A stretch of 64,000 nucleotides of DNA from Streptomyces sp. NBC_00536 (GTDB taxonomy: Bacteria; Actinomycetota; Actinomycetes; Streptomycetales; Streptomycetaceae): NCBI RefSeq assembly GCF_036346295.1, contig NZ_CP107819.1, forward strand, positions 6,014,001 through 6,078,000. Reading direction: 5' to 3'. Of the stretch, positions 24,976 to 29,251 are shown piece after piece. The notes below the pieces were generated by a model. It had not been told where the DNA came from. It ran no database searches and saw only the letters and a list, made by a program, of their open reading frames with translations. A program made the translations under genes and the position numbers. Each line of letters opens with the position of its first letter. The stretch's first letter is position 1.

Positions 24976-25406
24976 CCGCCGCTACGAGAGCCAGGGCGCC
25001 CGGACCCCGGCCGGAGCCGGTCGTCCCCTCCGGGGGCGCCTCAAACGCCGGCGGGGCTGAAATGCTCGGCCCCGGCGGCAAAGGGCCCTTGTACGACGCC
25101 GCCCGGACCCCGGCCGGAGCCGGTCATCCCCTCCGGGGGCGCCTCAAACGCCGGCGAGGCTGAAATGCCCGGCCCCGGCGGCAGAGGGCCGTTGTACGCC
25201 GCCGCGTGGAGCCTGGCCCGAGCCGGTCGTCCCCTCCGGGGGGCCTCGAACTCCCCCAGCTACCGCTGGGAGGGGCCCCCGGGCGAGGCTGAAATGCCCG
25301 CGCCCGGAGCCAATCCCAGCCTCGCCGGCGATTGAGGCGCCCCCGGAGGGCAGACGGGCCGGCACGGGGCCGCCAGCCCGGGCGGGGCGGCGGTCCGCGC
25401 AGGCCG
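24976..25406. repeat. Gene-free region with 103-bp tandem array of Streptomyces intergenic repeat
   Basis: Two 103-bp units (24999-25101 and 25102-25204) are almost identical. A third diverged unit starts at 25205, interrupted by an unrelated stem-loop (GGAGGGG / CCCCTCC region near 25250-25285). An inverted copy of the core lies at about 25313-25345. The core reads GCCTCAAACGCCGGCGAGGC followed by TGAAA, a palindromic element scattered widely through Streptomyces intergenic regions. No credible gene is present. The array sits between the permease and rhodanese 3' ends and may act as a bidirectional terminator. Confidence 0.85.
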
Positions 25407-25814
25407 TCAGTCCGCGGCCGTCACGGGGAGGCCCGCCGCCTTCCAGGCCTGGAAGCCGCCGGTCAGGTCCGTGGCCCGGGTCAGGCCCAGGGCGTGGAGG
25501 GAGGCCGCCGCCAGGGTGGAGGCGTAGCCCTCGTTGCAGATCACGACGATCCGCAGGTCGTGGGAGGTGGCCTCGGGGACGCGGTGGCTGCCCCGCGGGT
25601 CGAGGCGCCATTCCAGTTCGTTGCGCTCGATCACCAGCGCGCCCGGGATCAGGCCGTCCCGCTCGCGCAGCGCCTGGTAGCGGATGTCCACCAGCAGGGC
25701 GCCGCCCAGGGAGGCGGAGTGGGCCGCGGCGGGCCCGATCCGCTCGTACGTCGCGCGGACCCGCTCCAGCAGTTCGTCGATGCCGACGGGCGCGGCGCCG
25801 GGGGTGGCGCTCAC
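25407..25814 (-). CDS. Rhodanese-like sulfurtransferase
   Basis: A 135-residue single-domain rhodanese. The active-site loop is CNEGYAS with catalytic C93, preceded by the strand DLRIVVI; LVDIRYQALRERDGLIPGALVI is the CDC25/rhodanese signature, and the C-terminal TGGFQAWKAAGLPV is typical. It moves sulfane sulfur through a Cys persulfide. Its GTG start (25814) overlaps the stop of the cysteine dioxygenase gene (GTGA), so the two are coupled in one operon. This fits disposal or recycling of cysteine sulfur. Confidence 0.93.
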   Translation of the reverse strand: MSATPGAAPVGIDELLERVRATYERIGPAAAHSASLGGALLVDIRYQALRERDGLIPGALVIERNELEWRLDPRGSHRVPEATSHDLRIVVICNEGYASTLAAASLHALGLTRATDLTGGFQAWKAAGLPVTAAD

Positions 25815-26371
25815 TGCCAGTCCGCCGGGCGCTCGACCTGCTCCAGGGTCAGCACGGCCCCGCTGCGGCTGTACCGGCGGATCAGCGGGAGCGGCGGGTA
25901 GTAGGCGTGGACCGAGACGGCGTGTTCGGCGGGGGAGGCGTTCAGCACCTCGTGCACGTGGTGCTCGCCGAAGGCGCGCCCGGTGCCCGCGCCCAGGGTG
26001 CGGGTGCGGTCCAGACCGGAGGCCAGGTGCAGGGACTTCCACCCCTCCGACGGCAGCCGGACGGACAGGGAGTGCTCGGTGAGGCTGCCGCGCGCGGTGG
26101 CGAAGGCCCCGCGAGACTCGGCGTGGTCGTGCCAGCCGGTGCCGGTGCCCGGCGGCCAGCCGATCAGCCAGGCCTCGCTGCCGCCCGGGCCGTCGAGACG
26201 CACCCAGGTCCGGCCTTCGGGGTCGAGGGGGAGCGAGTCGATCAGCGCGGAGTCGGCGGCGGTCCGCCGGGCGAAGTCGAGCAGTTCGGCCGCGCCCGGG
26301 CCGGTGGCGGAGGGGCCGGTGGCGGAGGGGTCCGCGGCCGCCGGGGCATGGCTGAGCAGGGGTGCAGACAT
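25811..26371 (-). CDS. Cysteine dioxygenase family protein
   Basis: A 186-residue cupin of the cysteine dioxygenase family. Iron ligands are visible as H81 and H83 (GTGWHDHAESRGAF) and a third His in FGEHHVHEVLN (H138 or H140). The reaction is oxidation of cysteine by O2 to cysteine sulfinate, the first step of cysteine catabolism. The N-terminal 27 residues include a short duplicated PSATG segment. Its own ribosome-binding site is weak (AGGACGG about 12 bases from the ATG at 26371). A cysteine-rich mini-ORF lies 60 bp upstream. The rhodanese gene overlaps its end. Confidence 0.92.
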   Translation of the reverse strand: MSAPLLSHAPAAADPSATGPSATGPGAAELLDFARRTAADSALIDSLPLDPEGRTWVRLDGPGGSEAWLIGWPPGTGTGWHDHAESRGAFATARGSLTEHSLSVRLPSEGWKSLHLASGLDRTRTLGAGTGRAFGEHHVHEVLNASPAEHAVSVHAYYPPLPLIRRYSRSGAVLTLEQVERPADWQ

Positions 26372-26431
26372 GGGGAATGACCGTCCTGGGAGTTCGCGAA
26401 AGCGCGCGGGGGCGCGCGGGAAGGAGGCGAG

Positions 26432-26479
26432 TCAGCAGGAAGGGCGACAGACGCAGCCCGCATAGCGGAGGAGGTCCAT
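26432..26479 (-). CDS. Putative cysteine-sensing leader peptide MDLLRYAGCVCRPSC
   Basis: A 15-codon ORF with ATG at 26479, a strong ribosome-binding site GGAGGG six bases upstream, and stop TGA at 26432-26434. Three of its last seven codons are Cys (positions 9, 11, 15), and the final Cys sits directly before the stop. Short Cys-rich upstream ORFs control sulfur genes in actinobacteria by ribosome pausing when Cys-tRNA is low (shown in mycobacteria). The gene 60 bp downstream is cysteine dioxygenase. A GC-rich hairpin (26402-26417: GCGCGC-GGGG-GCGCGC) lies between them. No direct expression evidence exists. Confidence 0.72.
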   Translation of the reverse strand: MDLLRYAGCVCRPSC

Positions 26480-26558
26480 GTGGACCCTCCGCCACAGGCG
26501 TACGTCGTGACCGGTCATGTCCGCGAGTGAACCACGGGCGGACATGAGGGTCAATCGA

Positions 26559-28202
26559 TCACGGGTGGGGTGTGGCGGACGCCTCGGGCAGGGCCCGCGG
26601 CCCGGCGGCCTGGCCAGAGCCGGAGCCGGAGCCGGGTCCGGGCGCGGGCAGCGCCGGCAGTGCGGACTCCGGGGCGCCCGCCCGTACGGCGTCCGCCGCC
26701 TCGTACAGCTCCGCCGGGCGGACCCCGGCGAAGGTGGCCGCGAGGTGGCCGTCCGGGCGCAGCAGCAGCACGGTGTGCGCGGCGGCCCCCGGGTAGCCGT
26801 CGGCGACCAGCAGCTCGGCGCGCACCGGCAGGGCGCCGACTGCGGCCTCCAGCCGGGGCATCAGCCCGGCGCCGACCCAGTGCCGCCGGTCCCACACGCC
26901 GGTTCCGGGAGCGACGAGGAGCACGAGGAGCCGCCCCCGGCCGAGCAGGTCGCGCAGCGGTACGGTCGCCCCGTCCGGGGCGGTCACCGGTACGTTCGCC
27001 GCCTGGCCGCCCGGTGGGGTGTCGGTCGGGACCTCGCGTACGGCGACGGGCGGGGCGTACGCCGGGGGCGCGCCCAGCGGCCCGCGCCCCAAGTGGCCGT
27101 CCGTGAGCAGCGTTTCATGGCTGCGCGCGGCGCCCGGGACGTACGTGCGCAGCCCGCCCCCGCCGCGCAGGACGGGCATGGCCTGGTCGGCGGCGCGCAG
27201 CCGGGAGGCCACCGCGGTGCGCCGTTCGGCCTCGTACCCGTCGAGCAGGGCTTCGGAGGCACCCTGGTGCCAGGCCAGGGACAGCCGCCAGGCCAGGTTC
27301 TCGGCGTCCCGCAGCCCCTCCTCGACCCCCTGCGTGCCCAGGGCGCCCAGCAGGTGGGCCGCGTCCCCGGCGAGGAAGGCGCGGCCGTCGCGCCAGCGCC
27401 GGGCGAGCCGGTGGTGCAGCGTGTACACGCCGGTGTCGATCAGTTCGTACGGGGGCGTGCTGCCCCCGCACCAGCCGGCGAGGGTGTCGCGGATCATCCC
27501 GATCAGCGCGTCGGGCGTGACCAGGTCGCCGCGCGGCGGCAGCAGCCAGTCCAGCCGCCAGACCCCGTCGGGCAGCGGCCGCGCCGTGACCTCGGCGGTC
27601 TTCGCGGAGCGGCTGCGGTGCAGCAGGGCCTCGCCGGGCCAGGGGAGTTCGGTGCGCAGCGCGGCCACGGCGTGGCGTTCCACGGCGGTGCGCCCGGGGA
27701 AGCGGATGCCCAGCAGCTTGCGGACGGTCGAGCGGGCGCCGTCGCAGCCGACCAGATGGCTGCCGCGCCACCAGGTGGCCGCGGCGCCCCGGGTGTGCGC
27801 GGTGACCCCGAGGGCGTCCTGCTCCAGGGCGTCGAGGCGGCTGTCGGTGACCAGTTGGACCAGCGGGTGCGCCGCGGCGGCGTCGCGCAGGCCCCGGGTG
27901 AGGGCGTGCTGCGGCAGGTGCAGCGGGGCGGTGGTGTCCTCGAAGGTGACCCGGCGGGTGTCCCGGCCGCGCCGCGTGGTGCGCCAGGCGGCGAAGGGGG
28001 CGCCCTCGTCGCGCAGGGTCGTACAGCCCAGCCGGTGAACCATCGCGGCGGTGTCGGCGTGCAGGACGACCGTACGGGCGGGGCGGGACTCCTCCTTGCC
28101 CGGACCCTCGTCGAGGACGACGGAGGGCACGCCCGCGCCGGCCAGGGCGAGCGCGAGGGTCAGCCCGACGGGTCCCGCACCCACGACGATCACCGGGTCC
28201 AC
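26559..28202 (-). CDS. FAD-dependent aromatic monooxygenase
   Basis: A 547-residue group A flavoprotein hydroxylase. The GTG start at 28202 was chosen because GGGAG lies eight bases upstream and the FAD-binding fingerprint VIVVGAGPVGL (residues 4-14) follows at once. Other motifs are GCDGARS (the DG motif) and FLAGDAAHLLGALGTQGVEEGLRDAENL (the GD motif). A thioredoxin-like C-terminal domain (about 410-510) is as in phenol/MhpA-type hydroxylases. It should hydroxylate an aromatic or polyketide substrate with NAD(P)H and O2; the substrate is unknown. The last 35 residues are a Pro/Gly/Ser linker. An upstream TGTGATCACA palindrome (28226-28235) may be an operator. Confidence 0.9.
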   Translation of the reverse strand: MDPVIVVGAGPVGLTLALALAGAGVPSVVLDEGPGKEESRPARTVVLHADTAAMVHRLGCTTLRDEGAPFAAWRTTRRGRDTRRVTFEDTTAPLHLPQHALTRGLRDAAAAHPLVQLVTDSRLDALEQDALGVTAHTRGAAATWWRGSHLVGCDGARSTVRKLLGIRFPGRTAVERHAVAALRTELPWPGEALLHRSRSAKTAEVTARPLPDGVWRLDWLLPPRGDLVTPDALIGMIRDTLAGWCGGSTPPYELIDTGVYTLHHRLARRWRDGRAFLAGDAAHLLGALGTQGVEEGLRDAENLAWRLSLAWHQGASEALLDGYEAERRTAVASRLRAADQAMPVLRGGGGLRTYVPGAARSHETLLTDGHLGRGPLGAPPAYAPPVAVREVPTDTPPGGQAANVPVTAPDGATVPLRDLLGRGRLLVLLVAPGTGVWDRRHWVGAGLMPRLEAAVGALPVRAELLVADGYPGAAAHTVLLLRPDGHLAATFAGVRPAELYEAADAVRAGAPESALPALPAPGPGSGSGSGQAAGPRALPEASATPHP

Positions 28203-28225
28203 GGCACTGCTCCCGATGTCCGGTA

Positions 28226-28235
28226 TGTGATCACA
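28226..28235. promoter_or_regulatory. TGTGATCACA palindrome upstream of the monooxygenase
   Basis: A perfect 10-bp palindrome lies 24 bp upstream of the chosen GTG. Half-sites of this type are bound by Crp/Fnr and GntR proteins. A TTGACG about 30 bp further upstream on the minus strand could be the -35. The regulator is not identifiable from the window. Confidence 0.4.
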
Positions 28236-28291
28236 GAACGTATGCAACCCACTGAATGCGCATGCGTCAAGTGACACTGGTGGGTGAGACG

Positions 28292-28330
28292 CCTTGTGGT
28301 GCGACGGAAGACTTCCGCCGCACCACAAGG
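28292..28330. terminator. Long near-perfect palindrome downstream of gluD
   Basis: A 39-bp hairpin with arms CCTTGTGGTGCG and CGCACCACAAGG and an inner stem CGGAAG/CTTCCG, broken by only two single mismatches and a one-base centre. It lies 37 bp after the gluD stop and before the monooxygenase promoter. It should end glu operon transcription. There is no T-tract, as is common in Streptomyces. Confidence 0.8.
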
Positions 28331-28366
28331 ATCACGCCATCATACTGACCGGGTGTCAGGAGGGTG

Positions 28367-29251
28367 TCAGACCGTGCCCGCGCCGCCGCCCGCGCCCGCG
28401 TCGATCGCGGCGAGGTCGACCGTCGCGCCGGTGCTCTTCTTCGACTTGCGCAGCCGCTTCTCCAGCTGGGAAGCGGCCGTGGTCAGCGCGAAGTTCATGG
28501 CGATGAACAGCACGGCGATCATGACGAGGGACGCGATGGTGTTGCTGTAGTTCGCCGCGATCTGCCGGGCCATGGAGAGCAGCTCGGGCAGCGCGAGCAG
28601 CGAGCCGCCGAGCGCGGTGTCCTTGAGGATCACCACGAGCTGGCTGACCAGCGCCGGGAGCATCGCCGTCACGGCCTGCGGGACCAGGACGTAGACCATG
28701 GTCTGGCCCTTGCGCATGCCGATCGCCTTGGCCGCGTCGGTCTGGCCGGAGGGCAAGGACAGCACGCCCGCCCGGACGATCTCCGCGATGACCGCGGCGT
28801 TGTACAGGACCAGGCCCGTCACCACGGCGTAGAGCGGCCGCTGTTCGGAGCTGACGTCGCTGAACCGCACGTACAGGGCGGAGCCGAAGAGCATCAGCAT
28901 CAGCACCGGGATGGCGCGGAAGAACTCGACGAACGCGCCGACCGGGATCCGGACCCAGGCGTGGTCGGAAAGCCGTCCGATGCCGAGCAGCGCCCCCAGC
29001 GGCAGCGCGATCACCATGGCGATCAGGCCGGCCTTGAGGGTCTCCAGTACGCCCGGGATCAGCCAGGTCGACCAGATCTCGCCGTCGGTGACGAACGGGG
29101 TCCACTTGTCGGCGTCGAGCTGGTTCTTGTCCGCCATGGTGGAGAGCACCCACCACAGGCCCAGGCCCAGCACGACGAGGAAGACCGCGGAGTACAGCCA
29201 GTTGCGCGCCTTGGCCTTGGGGCCCGGCGTGTCGTACAGCACGGAGGTCAT
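28367..29251 (-). CDS. gluD: Glutamate ABC transporter permease GluD
   Basis: A 294-residue membrane protein of the polar amino-acid permease (HisM) type. The EAA-loop-like segment DAAKAIGMRKGQTMVYVLVPQAV couples it to the ATPase GluA. The N-terminal 45 residues contain one membrane segment; the rest has about five. The C-terminal 30 residues are basic, then Ala/Gly-rich. Its ATG overlaps the gluC stop (4 bp), and gene order gluA-B-C-D matches the Corynebacterium and Streptomyces glutamate importer. Confidence 0.95.
   Translation of the reverse strand: MTSVLYDTPGPKAKARNWLYSAVFLVVLGLGLWWVLSTMADKNQLDADKWTPFVTDGEIWSTWLIPGVLETLKAGLIAMVIALPLGALLGIGRLSDHAWVRIPVGAFVEFFRAIPVLMLMLFGSALYVRFSDVSSEQRPLYAVVTGLVLYNAAVIAEIVRAGVLSLPSGQTDAAKAIGMRKGQTMVYVLVPQAVTAMLPALVSQLVVILKDTALGGSLLALPELLSMARQIAANYSNTIASLVMIAVLFIAMNFALTTAASQLEKRLRKSKKSTGATVDLAAIDAGAGGGAGTV

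Follow-up and report, generated by a model that had tools for sequence, protein, structure and literature searches.

A conserved cysteine-codon leader ahead of a cysteine dioxygenase-rhodanese gene pair in Streptomyces, with predicted attenuation of the dioxygenase

Layout of the locus

The 64,000-nucleotide stretch of Streptomyces sp. NBC_00536 DNA that we analysed (hereafter the window) carries a short open reading frame (ORF) between a FAD-dependent monooxygenase gene (26559-28328) and a gene pair encoding a cysteine dioxygenase (CDO) and a rhodanese; all features described here lie on the minus strand and are given in window coordinates. The dioxygenase (25811..26371) is a type I enzyme (CDO_I PF05995, 142.5 bits) and the gene behind it (25407..25814, start chosen by reading) encodes a rhodanese-like sulfurtransferase (PF00581, 48.5 bits), which upholds the annotation of this pair in a preliminary description of the locus. 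The GTG of the rhodanese gene and the stop codon of the dioxygenase gene share four nucleotides (GTGA). The monooxygenase gene ends just upstream of the leader promoter, and related sequence was seen by eye ahead of the leader in one other locus, L027.

The leader ORF (MTGHDVRLWRRVHMDLLRYAGCVCRPSC; 26432..26518), assigned from its match to NCBIfam NF042934 and its conservation, comprises 28 codons and a stop, and lies directly upstream of a sulfur-metabolism gene, with 60 nt between its stop and the CDO ATG (26371). Its ATG (26518-26516) stands 13 codons upstream of the start of a 15-codon, cysteine-ending ORF (MDLLRYAGCVCRPSC; 26432..26479) on which the preliminary description had centred; that ORF is present, with a Shine-Dalgarno (SD) GGAGG (26486..26490) 6 nt ahead of its ATG, but is only the in-frame end of the 28-codon ORF. 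Conservation is given below relative to an alignment of 78 sequences, comprising 77 fetched Streptomyces CDO loci and the window.

A -35 element (TTGACC, 26549..26554) and a -10 element (TTCACT, 26526..26531) are separated by 17 nt, with the -10 element 7 nt ahead of the leader ATG. The pair recurs in 77 of the 78 sequences, with a spacing of 17 or 18 nt in 75 and a -10-to-start gap of 6-7 nt in 76; codon 1 is ATG or GTG in 76. A generic promoter scan called no promoter at the leader and the -10 boxes are themselves weak matches, and we credit the promoter because it is conserved across sequences. Since the leader ATG follows this conserved promoter by 7 nt, the geometry suggests that the mRNA is probably leaderless. 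A second, internal ribosome entry site is possible in Streptomyces, given that the internal GGAGG and ATG are conserved (the codon for R11 is AGG in 75/78; codon 14 is ATG in 77/78 and CTG in one).

Three cysteine codons were located in the second half of the leader by alignment: Cys22 (TGC, 26453..26455), Cys24 (TGT, 26447..26449) and Cys28 (TGC, 26435..26437). The last leader codons (26436..26443; CCTTCCTG in the window, CCGTCCTG in the commonest form) form a putative anti-SD, complementary, with one mismatch in the window, to the CDO SD (CAGGACGG, 26381..26388; AGGACGG, 9 nt ahead of the CDO ATG). After the leader stop there follow in order TTCGC (CTCGC in the window, 26431-26427, immediately behind the stop), a pyrimidine-rich stretch, a GC hairpin (GCGCGC-CCCC-GCGCGC, 26402..26417), GCGAA (26393..26397), which is a putative pairing partner of TTCGC/CTCGC, and the SD. 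The 60-nt distance and the intervening hairpin, both part of the preliminary description, can be read directly here; at the hairpin's position the aligned loci hold GC-rich inverted stretches of variable length (by eye). A search of 26300-26640 for intrinsic terminators found none, Rfam returned 0 matches up to E=1 within 25000-28500, and a Pfam search of the leader peptide gave no match.

Conservation and kinship of the leader

Of 80 Streptomyces loci fetched, 79 have the leader ahead of the dioxygenase gene, one copy being truncated, so that conservation in other Streptomyces, the check named in the preliminary description, was confirmed. The 79 comprise 77 recognized by the regular motif, L013, in which Phe replaces Tyr in the motif, and the truncated L027; the 80th locus, L074, begins at CDO. 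Among 56 distinct leaders (L065, L066 and L082 left out), synonymous differences exceed nonsynonymous ones about threefold in codons 6-25 (4615 versus 1556), and over codons 2-28 the figures are 5838 and 4191. Both Cys22 and Cys24 are cysteine in all 78 sequences, and Cys24 is TGT in every one, yet TGT accounts for only 20 of the 93 Cys codons in the window's 21 gene-like ORFs. Of the three, the terminal Cys28 varies most, being a Cys codon in 70/78 and F, R, S or stop in the other eight. The recurrence at CDO loci, the synonymous excess and the fixed TGT argue that the leader ORF is not a chance occurrence.

We then scored presence per genome in 197 genomes of the order, adjacency of leader and CDO not being counted; the leader (E <= 0.001, 163 genomes) was found in 162 of the 165 genomes with CDO (E <= 1e-20) and in 1 of the 32 without. 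The three genomes with CDO alone (G018, G160 and G183) hold the three weakest CDO matches. The single leader without a CDO match (L143, G122:C18:111229-111309) is a decayed remnant that lacks a start codon and Met14, with an apparent rhodanese end or fragment (by eye) behind it; CDO appears to have been deleted in this genome. Outside the genus the leader is kept as R-L-x-R-R-x-H-L-D-x-V-R, in L146, which belongs to a different genus of the same family, and in L147 and L148, which belong to a different family of the order. At class level, where 57 genomes had a CDO match and 12 loci were examined, an H-V-D-L leader was present in two (L172 and L175). In L172 (1260-1420), from another actinobacterial family, the leader ORF overlaps and passes the CDO start codon, and coupling there must therefore differ.

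The leader is a real and conserved member of a named leader family: it passes the cut-off of NF042934, "putative leader peptide" (36.9 bits against 27), and fails that of NF042933, the Ms5788A Cys-rich family (17.7 bits against 45). Six places in its own genome exceed the NF042934 cut-off, the CDO leader included, and the other five precede genes that we named by eye from their translations as sulfatase, CysO-CysM, sulfite reductase, flavin reductase and thiosulfate sulfurtransferase. A sub-threshold member (22.9 bits) precedes a symporter, read by eye as a cystine carrier, and a still weaker match (17.8 bits; HVDYMRVTTTSCPPPDRTTA, L093:1501-1584, G000:C1:3200656-3200703) lies before an ORF that by eye resembles an isopenicillin-N-synthase-type oxygenase. 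Twelve further genomes yielded 97 family matches, from which we fetched 28 loci and could assign 23 by eye: six carried the CDO-type peptide, six members preceded CysO, five flavin-dependent monooxygenases, two sulfatases, two thiosulfate sulfurtransferases, one a sulfite reductase and one a symporter, with five left without assignment. By this reading, CDO is the sole clearly cysteine-consuming gene among the assigned family loci. The CDO leader thus shares with its family the RxHxDLxR...C core, a score above the curated cut-off and a sulfur gene downstream, and differs in preceding a cysteine-consuming enzyme, in its three spaced Cys codons and in a 3' end that complements the downstream SD, comparable modelled opening being found in 2 of 22 paralogue loci. 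An internal start was rejected as a family-wide rule: five of the own-genome paralogues have CAC GTC/GTA GAC (or GCA GTA GAC) there, and in order-level relatives the codon is CTG.

Kinship to mycobacterial Cys leaders, raised in the preliminary description, is likewise supported. The Ms5788A-type polycysteine leaderless short ORFs of mycobacteria (Canestrari et al. 2020) precede cysteine-metabolic genes, according to the accessible parts of three sources (PMC9031893, PMC13236596, PMC9094748). The CDO leader shares with them, as they are described there, a predicted leaderless start, terminal Cys codons, a position at the head of an operon and an association with sulfur genes. In contrast to them, its C-V-C-R-P-S-C end has no consecutive Cys run and its NF042933 score is below cut-off, and the mycobacterial examples named in the accessible parts of the same three sources (PMC9031893, PMC13236596, PMC9094748) are cysteine-metabolic genes, none of them a cysteine dioxygenase. 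The actinobacterial cysteine-sensing leaders described in the accessible text of the literature searched belong to cysteine and sulfur acquisition genes, and among the matches listed nothing linked a leader peptide to cysteine dioxygenase. As far as that literature extends, the placement at CDO, the SD-complementary leader end and the leader of a second CDO (see below) are undescribed and possibly new.

Pairing and modelled opening of the dioxygenase Shine-Dalgarno sequence

Read as a reverse complement, the CDO SD matches the last leader codons, mostly CCG TCC TG. In 76 of the 78 sequences the leader segment that best complements the SD is located at nt 74-75; of codon-shuffled leaders, 1.1% attain the median complement score. 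In an RNA alignment that took in 34 of the 78 sequences, 93% of cells pair in register as opposed to 29-54% when slid; among these 34 Streptomyces sequences no base pair has a two-sided change. Leaders without CCGTCC pair on average more strongly with their own SD than with the majority SD (-12.2 vs -10.3 kcal/mol, 27 sequences), as do seven leaders with AGGAACGG (-12.2 vs -9.6 kcal/mol), and over all 78 sequences cognate duplexes are barely stronger than swapped ones (-15.1 vs -14.6 kcal/mol). When leaders are recoded synonymously, about 30% of the variants pair equally well, and for the window, with its leader mismatch, the share is 72%. We grade the compensatory evidence for leader-SD pairing as weak. 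In L066 the terminal Cys codon has become a stop with the SD-complementary bases kept. Outside the genus, where the SD partners differ, pairing was matched or beaten by 35% of shuffles in L146, 16% in L147 and 14% in L148, and was rejected as strong support. When the upstream DNA of 20 loci was shuffled, SD openness rose to 0.215 from 0.094 in the real sequences, with 14% of shuffles as closed.

We modelled folding with a ribosome footprint that reaches 12 nt upstream and 15 nt downstream of the first P-site base, averaging over 76 sequences (L065 and L082 left out). The mean unpaired value of the SD was 0.06 with an empty leader and rose to 0.11, 0.24 and 0.25 with the ribosome placed at Cys22 (A site), Cys24 and the stop, respectively; opening by more than 0.05 was predicted in 67/76 sequences at Cys24, 35/76 at Cys22 and 65/76 at the stop. 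The corresponding values in the window were 0.10 (empty), 0.02 (Cys22), 0.33 (Cys24) and 0.28 (stop). In the model a closed SD thus opens when ribosomes occupy Cys24 to the stop, from which more CDO would be expected at low cysteine. A traffic simulation based on the mean profile of 24 of the 76 loci pointed the same way when all three Cys codons were slowed, exposure rising at each of four initiation rates (0.089 to 0.177, 0.107 to 0.184, 0.134 to 0.185 and 0.159 to 0.186). Slowing Cys22 alone lowered exposure at the two highest rates (from 0.159 to 0.104 and from 0.134 to 0.104), and at a third rate the drop was marginal. Induction predicted by this simple traffic model is at most about twofold.

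The same model was applied to 22 paralogue loci (a 23rd, L196, was left out as no start was given), in which openness with an empty leader ranged from 0.11 to 0.68. Two monooxygenase leaders (L183 and L195) rise like the CDO leader, eight fall by at least 0.1 at a Cys codon or the stop, and the others are flat. With a CDO-like rise in only 2 of 22 modelled loci, SD sequestration was rejected as a family-wide mechanism.

Predicted control, its polarity and the second dioxygenase

Cysteine dioxygenase is a textbook enzyme of cysteine catabolism. A conserved Cys leader on such a cysteine-destroying enzyme suggests either a sensor rewired to the opposite polarity or a CDO with another job during sulfur shortage. 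The leader very probably lets the ribosomal supply of cysteine set the amount of CDO that is made, and the explanation that we tentatively prefer, at somewhat less than an even chance, is a cis-acting cysteine-responsive attenuator in which CDO rises at low cysteine through an SD freed by the leader ribosome. The transcript would begin at the leader ATG and ribosomes would read its 28 codons; on an empty leader the last codons (R-P-S-C) would pair with the CDO SD, backed by a TTCGC:GCGAA stem around the GC hairpin, and CDO translation would be low. A shortage of charged tRNA-Cys would make ribosomes linger on Cys24 (TGT) and Cys28, where they would mask the 5' arm; the SD would thereby be freed and CDO made, along with the rhodanese through the 4-nt overlap. 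The pair would then belong to a sulfur-shortage regulon and not to cysteine disposal.

So construed, the CDO leader would be a variant of a known attenuator type. In translation attenuators of the erm and cat type, a stalled leader ribosome frees a sequestered SD; the predicted release is the same here, whereas the signal would be tRNA-Cys charging and not an antibiotic. With the classical trp-type transcription attenuator it shares a leader peptide with codons for the relevant amino acid, but no intrinsic terminator was found in its leader region.

Low-cysteine induction is favoured by the company that the leader family keeps, by the model, by the invariant TGT at Cys24 and by the composition of the two enzymes; we put it close to, but still short of, an even chance. 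From the LLxF motif on, CDO has no Cys in 75/77 sequences and no Met in 74/77, and the C-terminal 120 residues of the rhodanese contain one Cys in 74/76 and no Met in 76/76, the window's gene-like ORFs having 0.81% Cys and 1.28% Met. This near absence of sulfur amino acids is only suggestive, because the orthologues are not independent. The predicted polarity is unproven and contradicts catabolic logic; as CDO degrades cysteine, its induction at low cysteine would be physiologically odd.

The strongest alternative, a serious contender that we nonetheless consider unlikely, keeps the leader and reverses its sign: abundant cysteine would let ribosomes reach the stop, open the SD hairpin and so allow CDO synthesis, and at low cysteine they would halt at Cys22, the first Cys codon, short of the anti-SD, and leave the hairpin closed. 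This fits the enzyme's chemistry, cysteine oxidation, and parts of the model, in which a ribosome with Cys22 in its A site leaves the SD mostly closed, one at the stop leaves it open, and a slow Cys22 alone lowers simulated exposure at the two highest initiation rates. Against it, a ribosome stalled at Cys28 or at the invariant TGT of Cys24 is placed to open the hairpin, and slowing all three codons in the simulation gives the opposite result. The preliminary description had supposed such a reversed logic, and it is disfavoured by a family that otherwise precedes acquisition genes and by a model that exposes the SD when Cys codons slow.

Published feather cultures, as reported in the accessible parts of two papers, bear on both signs. 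Interest in CDO extends to feather breakdown by Streptomyces, in which two cdo genes are under strong regulation for which those accessible parts offer no mechanism (PMC7181669, PMC12763843). In strain SCUT-3, cdo1 and cdo2 mRNA rose 50.2-fold and 8.3-fold on feather relative to LB (PMC7181669), and in strain KK both cdo mRNAs were up at 96 h on feather, 21.65- and 6.36-fold, while cysteine plus cystine in the broth increased over 24-120 h (PMC12763843). Induction of both genes on cysteine-rich feather in two strains (PMC7181669, PMC12763843) supports the reversed sign and counts against our preferred explanation, as does the unchanged cysM at 96 h in strain KK while cdo rose (PMC12763843), though CysO-CysM in the genome studied here has a family leader. 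In the same culture, however, sulfate-assimilation genes were also up at 96 h, which speaks against the reversed sign (PMC12763843). We consider these data ambiguous: they fit either polarity, and bear on these leaders only if the SCUT-3 and KK cdo genes carry them.

A distinctly improbable alternative is transcriptional attenuation, probably Rho-dependent, in which ribosome release at the leader stop would expose the pyrimidine-rich stretch and the SD hairpin would be secondary. A C- and T-rich, G-poor stretch does follow the leader stop in the inspected loci (by eye), most paralogue loci share the leader yet in the model do so without SD opening by the leader ribosome, and Rho has been proposed for mycobacterial cys leaders in the accessible part of one source (PMC1262725). 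The lack of an intrinsic terminator within 26300-26640 and the strong SD:anti-SD complement of this region both tell against this alternative. That the leader is only a constitutive coupling device, with leaderless loading and SD reopening but no sensing by its Cys codons, would suit the conserved internal SD and start and the replaceable terminal Cys, and is very improbable in view of Cys22 and Cys24 being cysteine in 78/78, with TGT fixed at 24, and of a Cys-rich leader of another sequence type ahead of the second CDO.

The genome of the window strain has four PF05995 matches, of 142.1, 62, 30.3 and 26.3 bits. The second CDO (L108) has its own leader (MSAPAAATRTPIRGFLCAAQVRCCCCSC; L108:1219-1305, G000:C1:3269975-3270058), which lies behind TTGACA and ends about 100 nt before the gene. 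This is a polycysteine ORF (...RCCCCSC or ...RCCCSSCHSC) with a consecutive Cys run, as in the mycobacterial polycysteine leaders, and no NCBIfam model matched it; upstream of the two weaker CDO-family matches (L109 and L110) no Cys-rich ORF was found. A profile of the second leader hit 66 of the 197 genomes of the order, all in Streptomyces; of 30 loci fetched, 29 have TTGACA ahead of the leader start and, 274-388 nt past its stop, a CDO signature, and the 30th, L242, was misread, probably because a contig end shifts the coordinates. As two cysteine dioxygenases carry Cys leaders of different sequence, we argue that cysteine-codon control of this step has been selected. A wider proposal, which we put forward as doubtful, would place both main Streptomyces CDO genes under cysteine-codon attenuation through two unrelated leaders; at the CDO-rhodanese pair an ancestral sulfur-starvation leader would have gained an SD-sequestering 3' end, and the pair, switched on at cysteine shortage, would scavenge sulfur (organic thiol to sulfite, then the sulfite reductase of the same regulon) in place of disposing of cysteine.

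Two Streptomyces loci depart from the common arrangement. In L027 (1180-1320) a natural deletion fuses leader codon 23 to a point just before GCGAA, so that the leader is kept only to codon 23 and Cys24, the leader end with the anti-SD and the hairpin are gone; if not an assembly error, this locus is a candidate for natural constitutive expression. In L065 (1150-1370) foreign-looking DNA takes the place of the promoter and the first 13 leader codons; it carries an inverted repeat that ends just before codon 14, and it seems to resemble the end of a mobile element.
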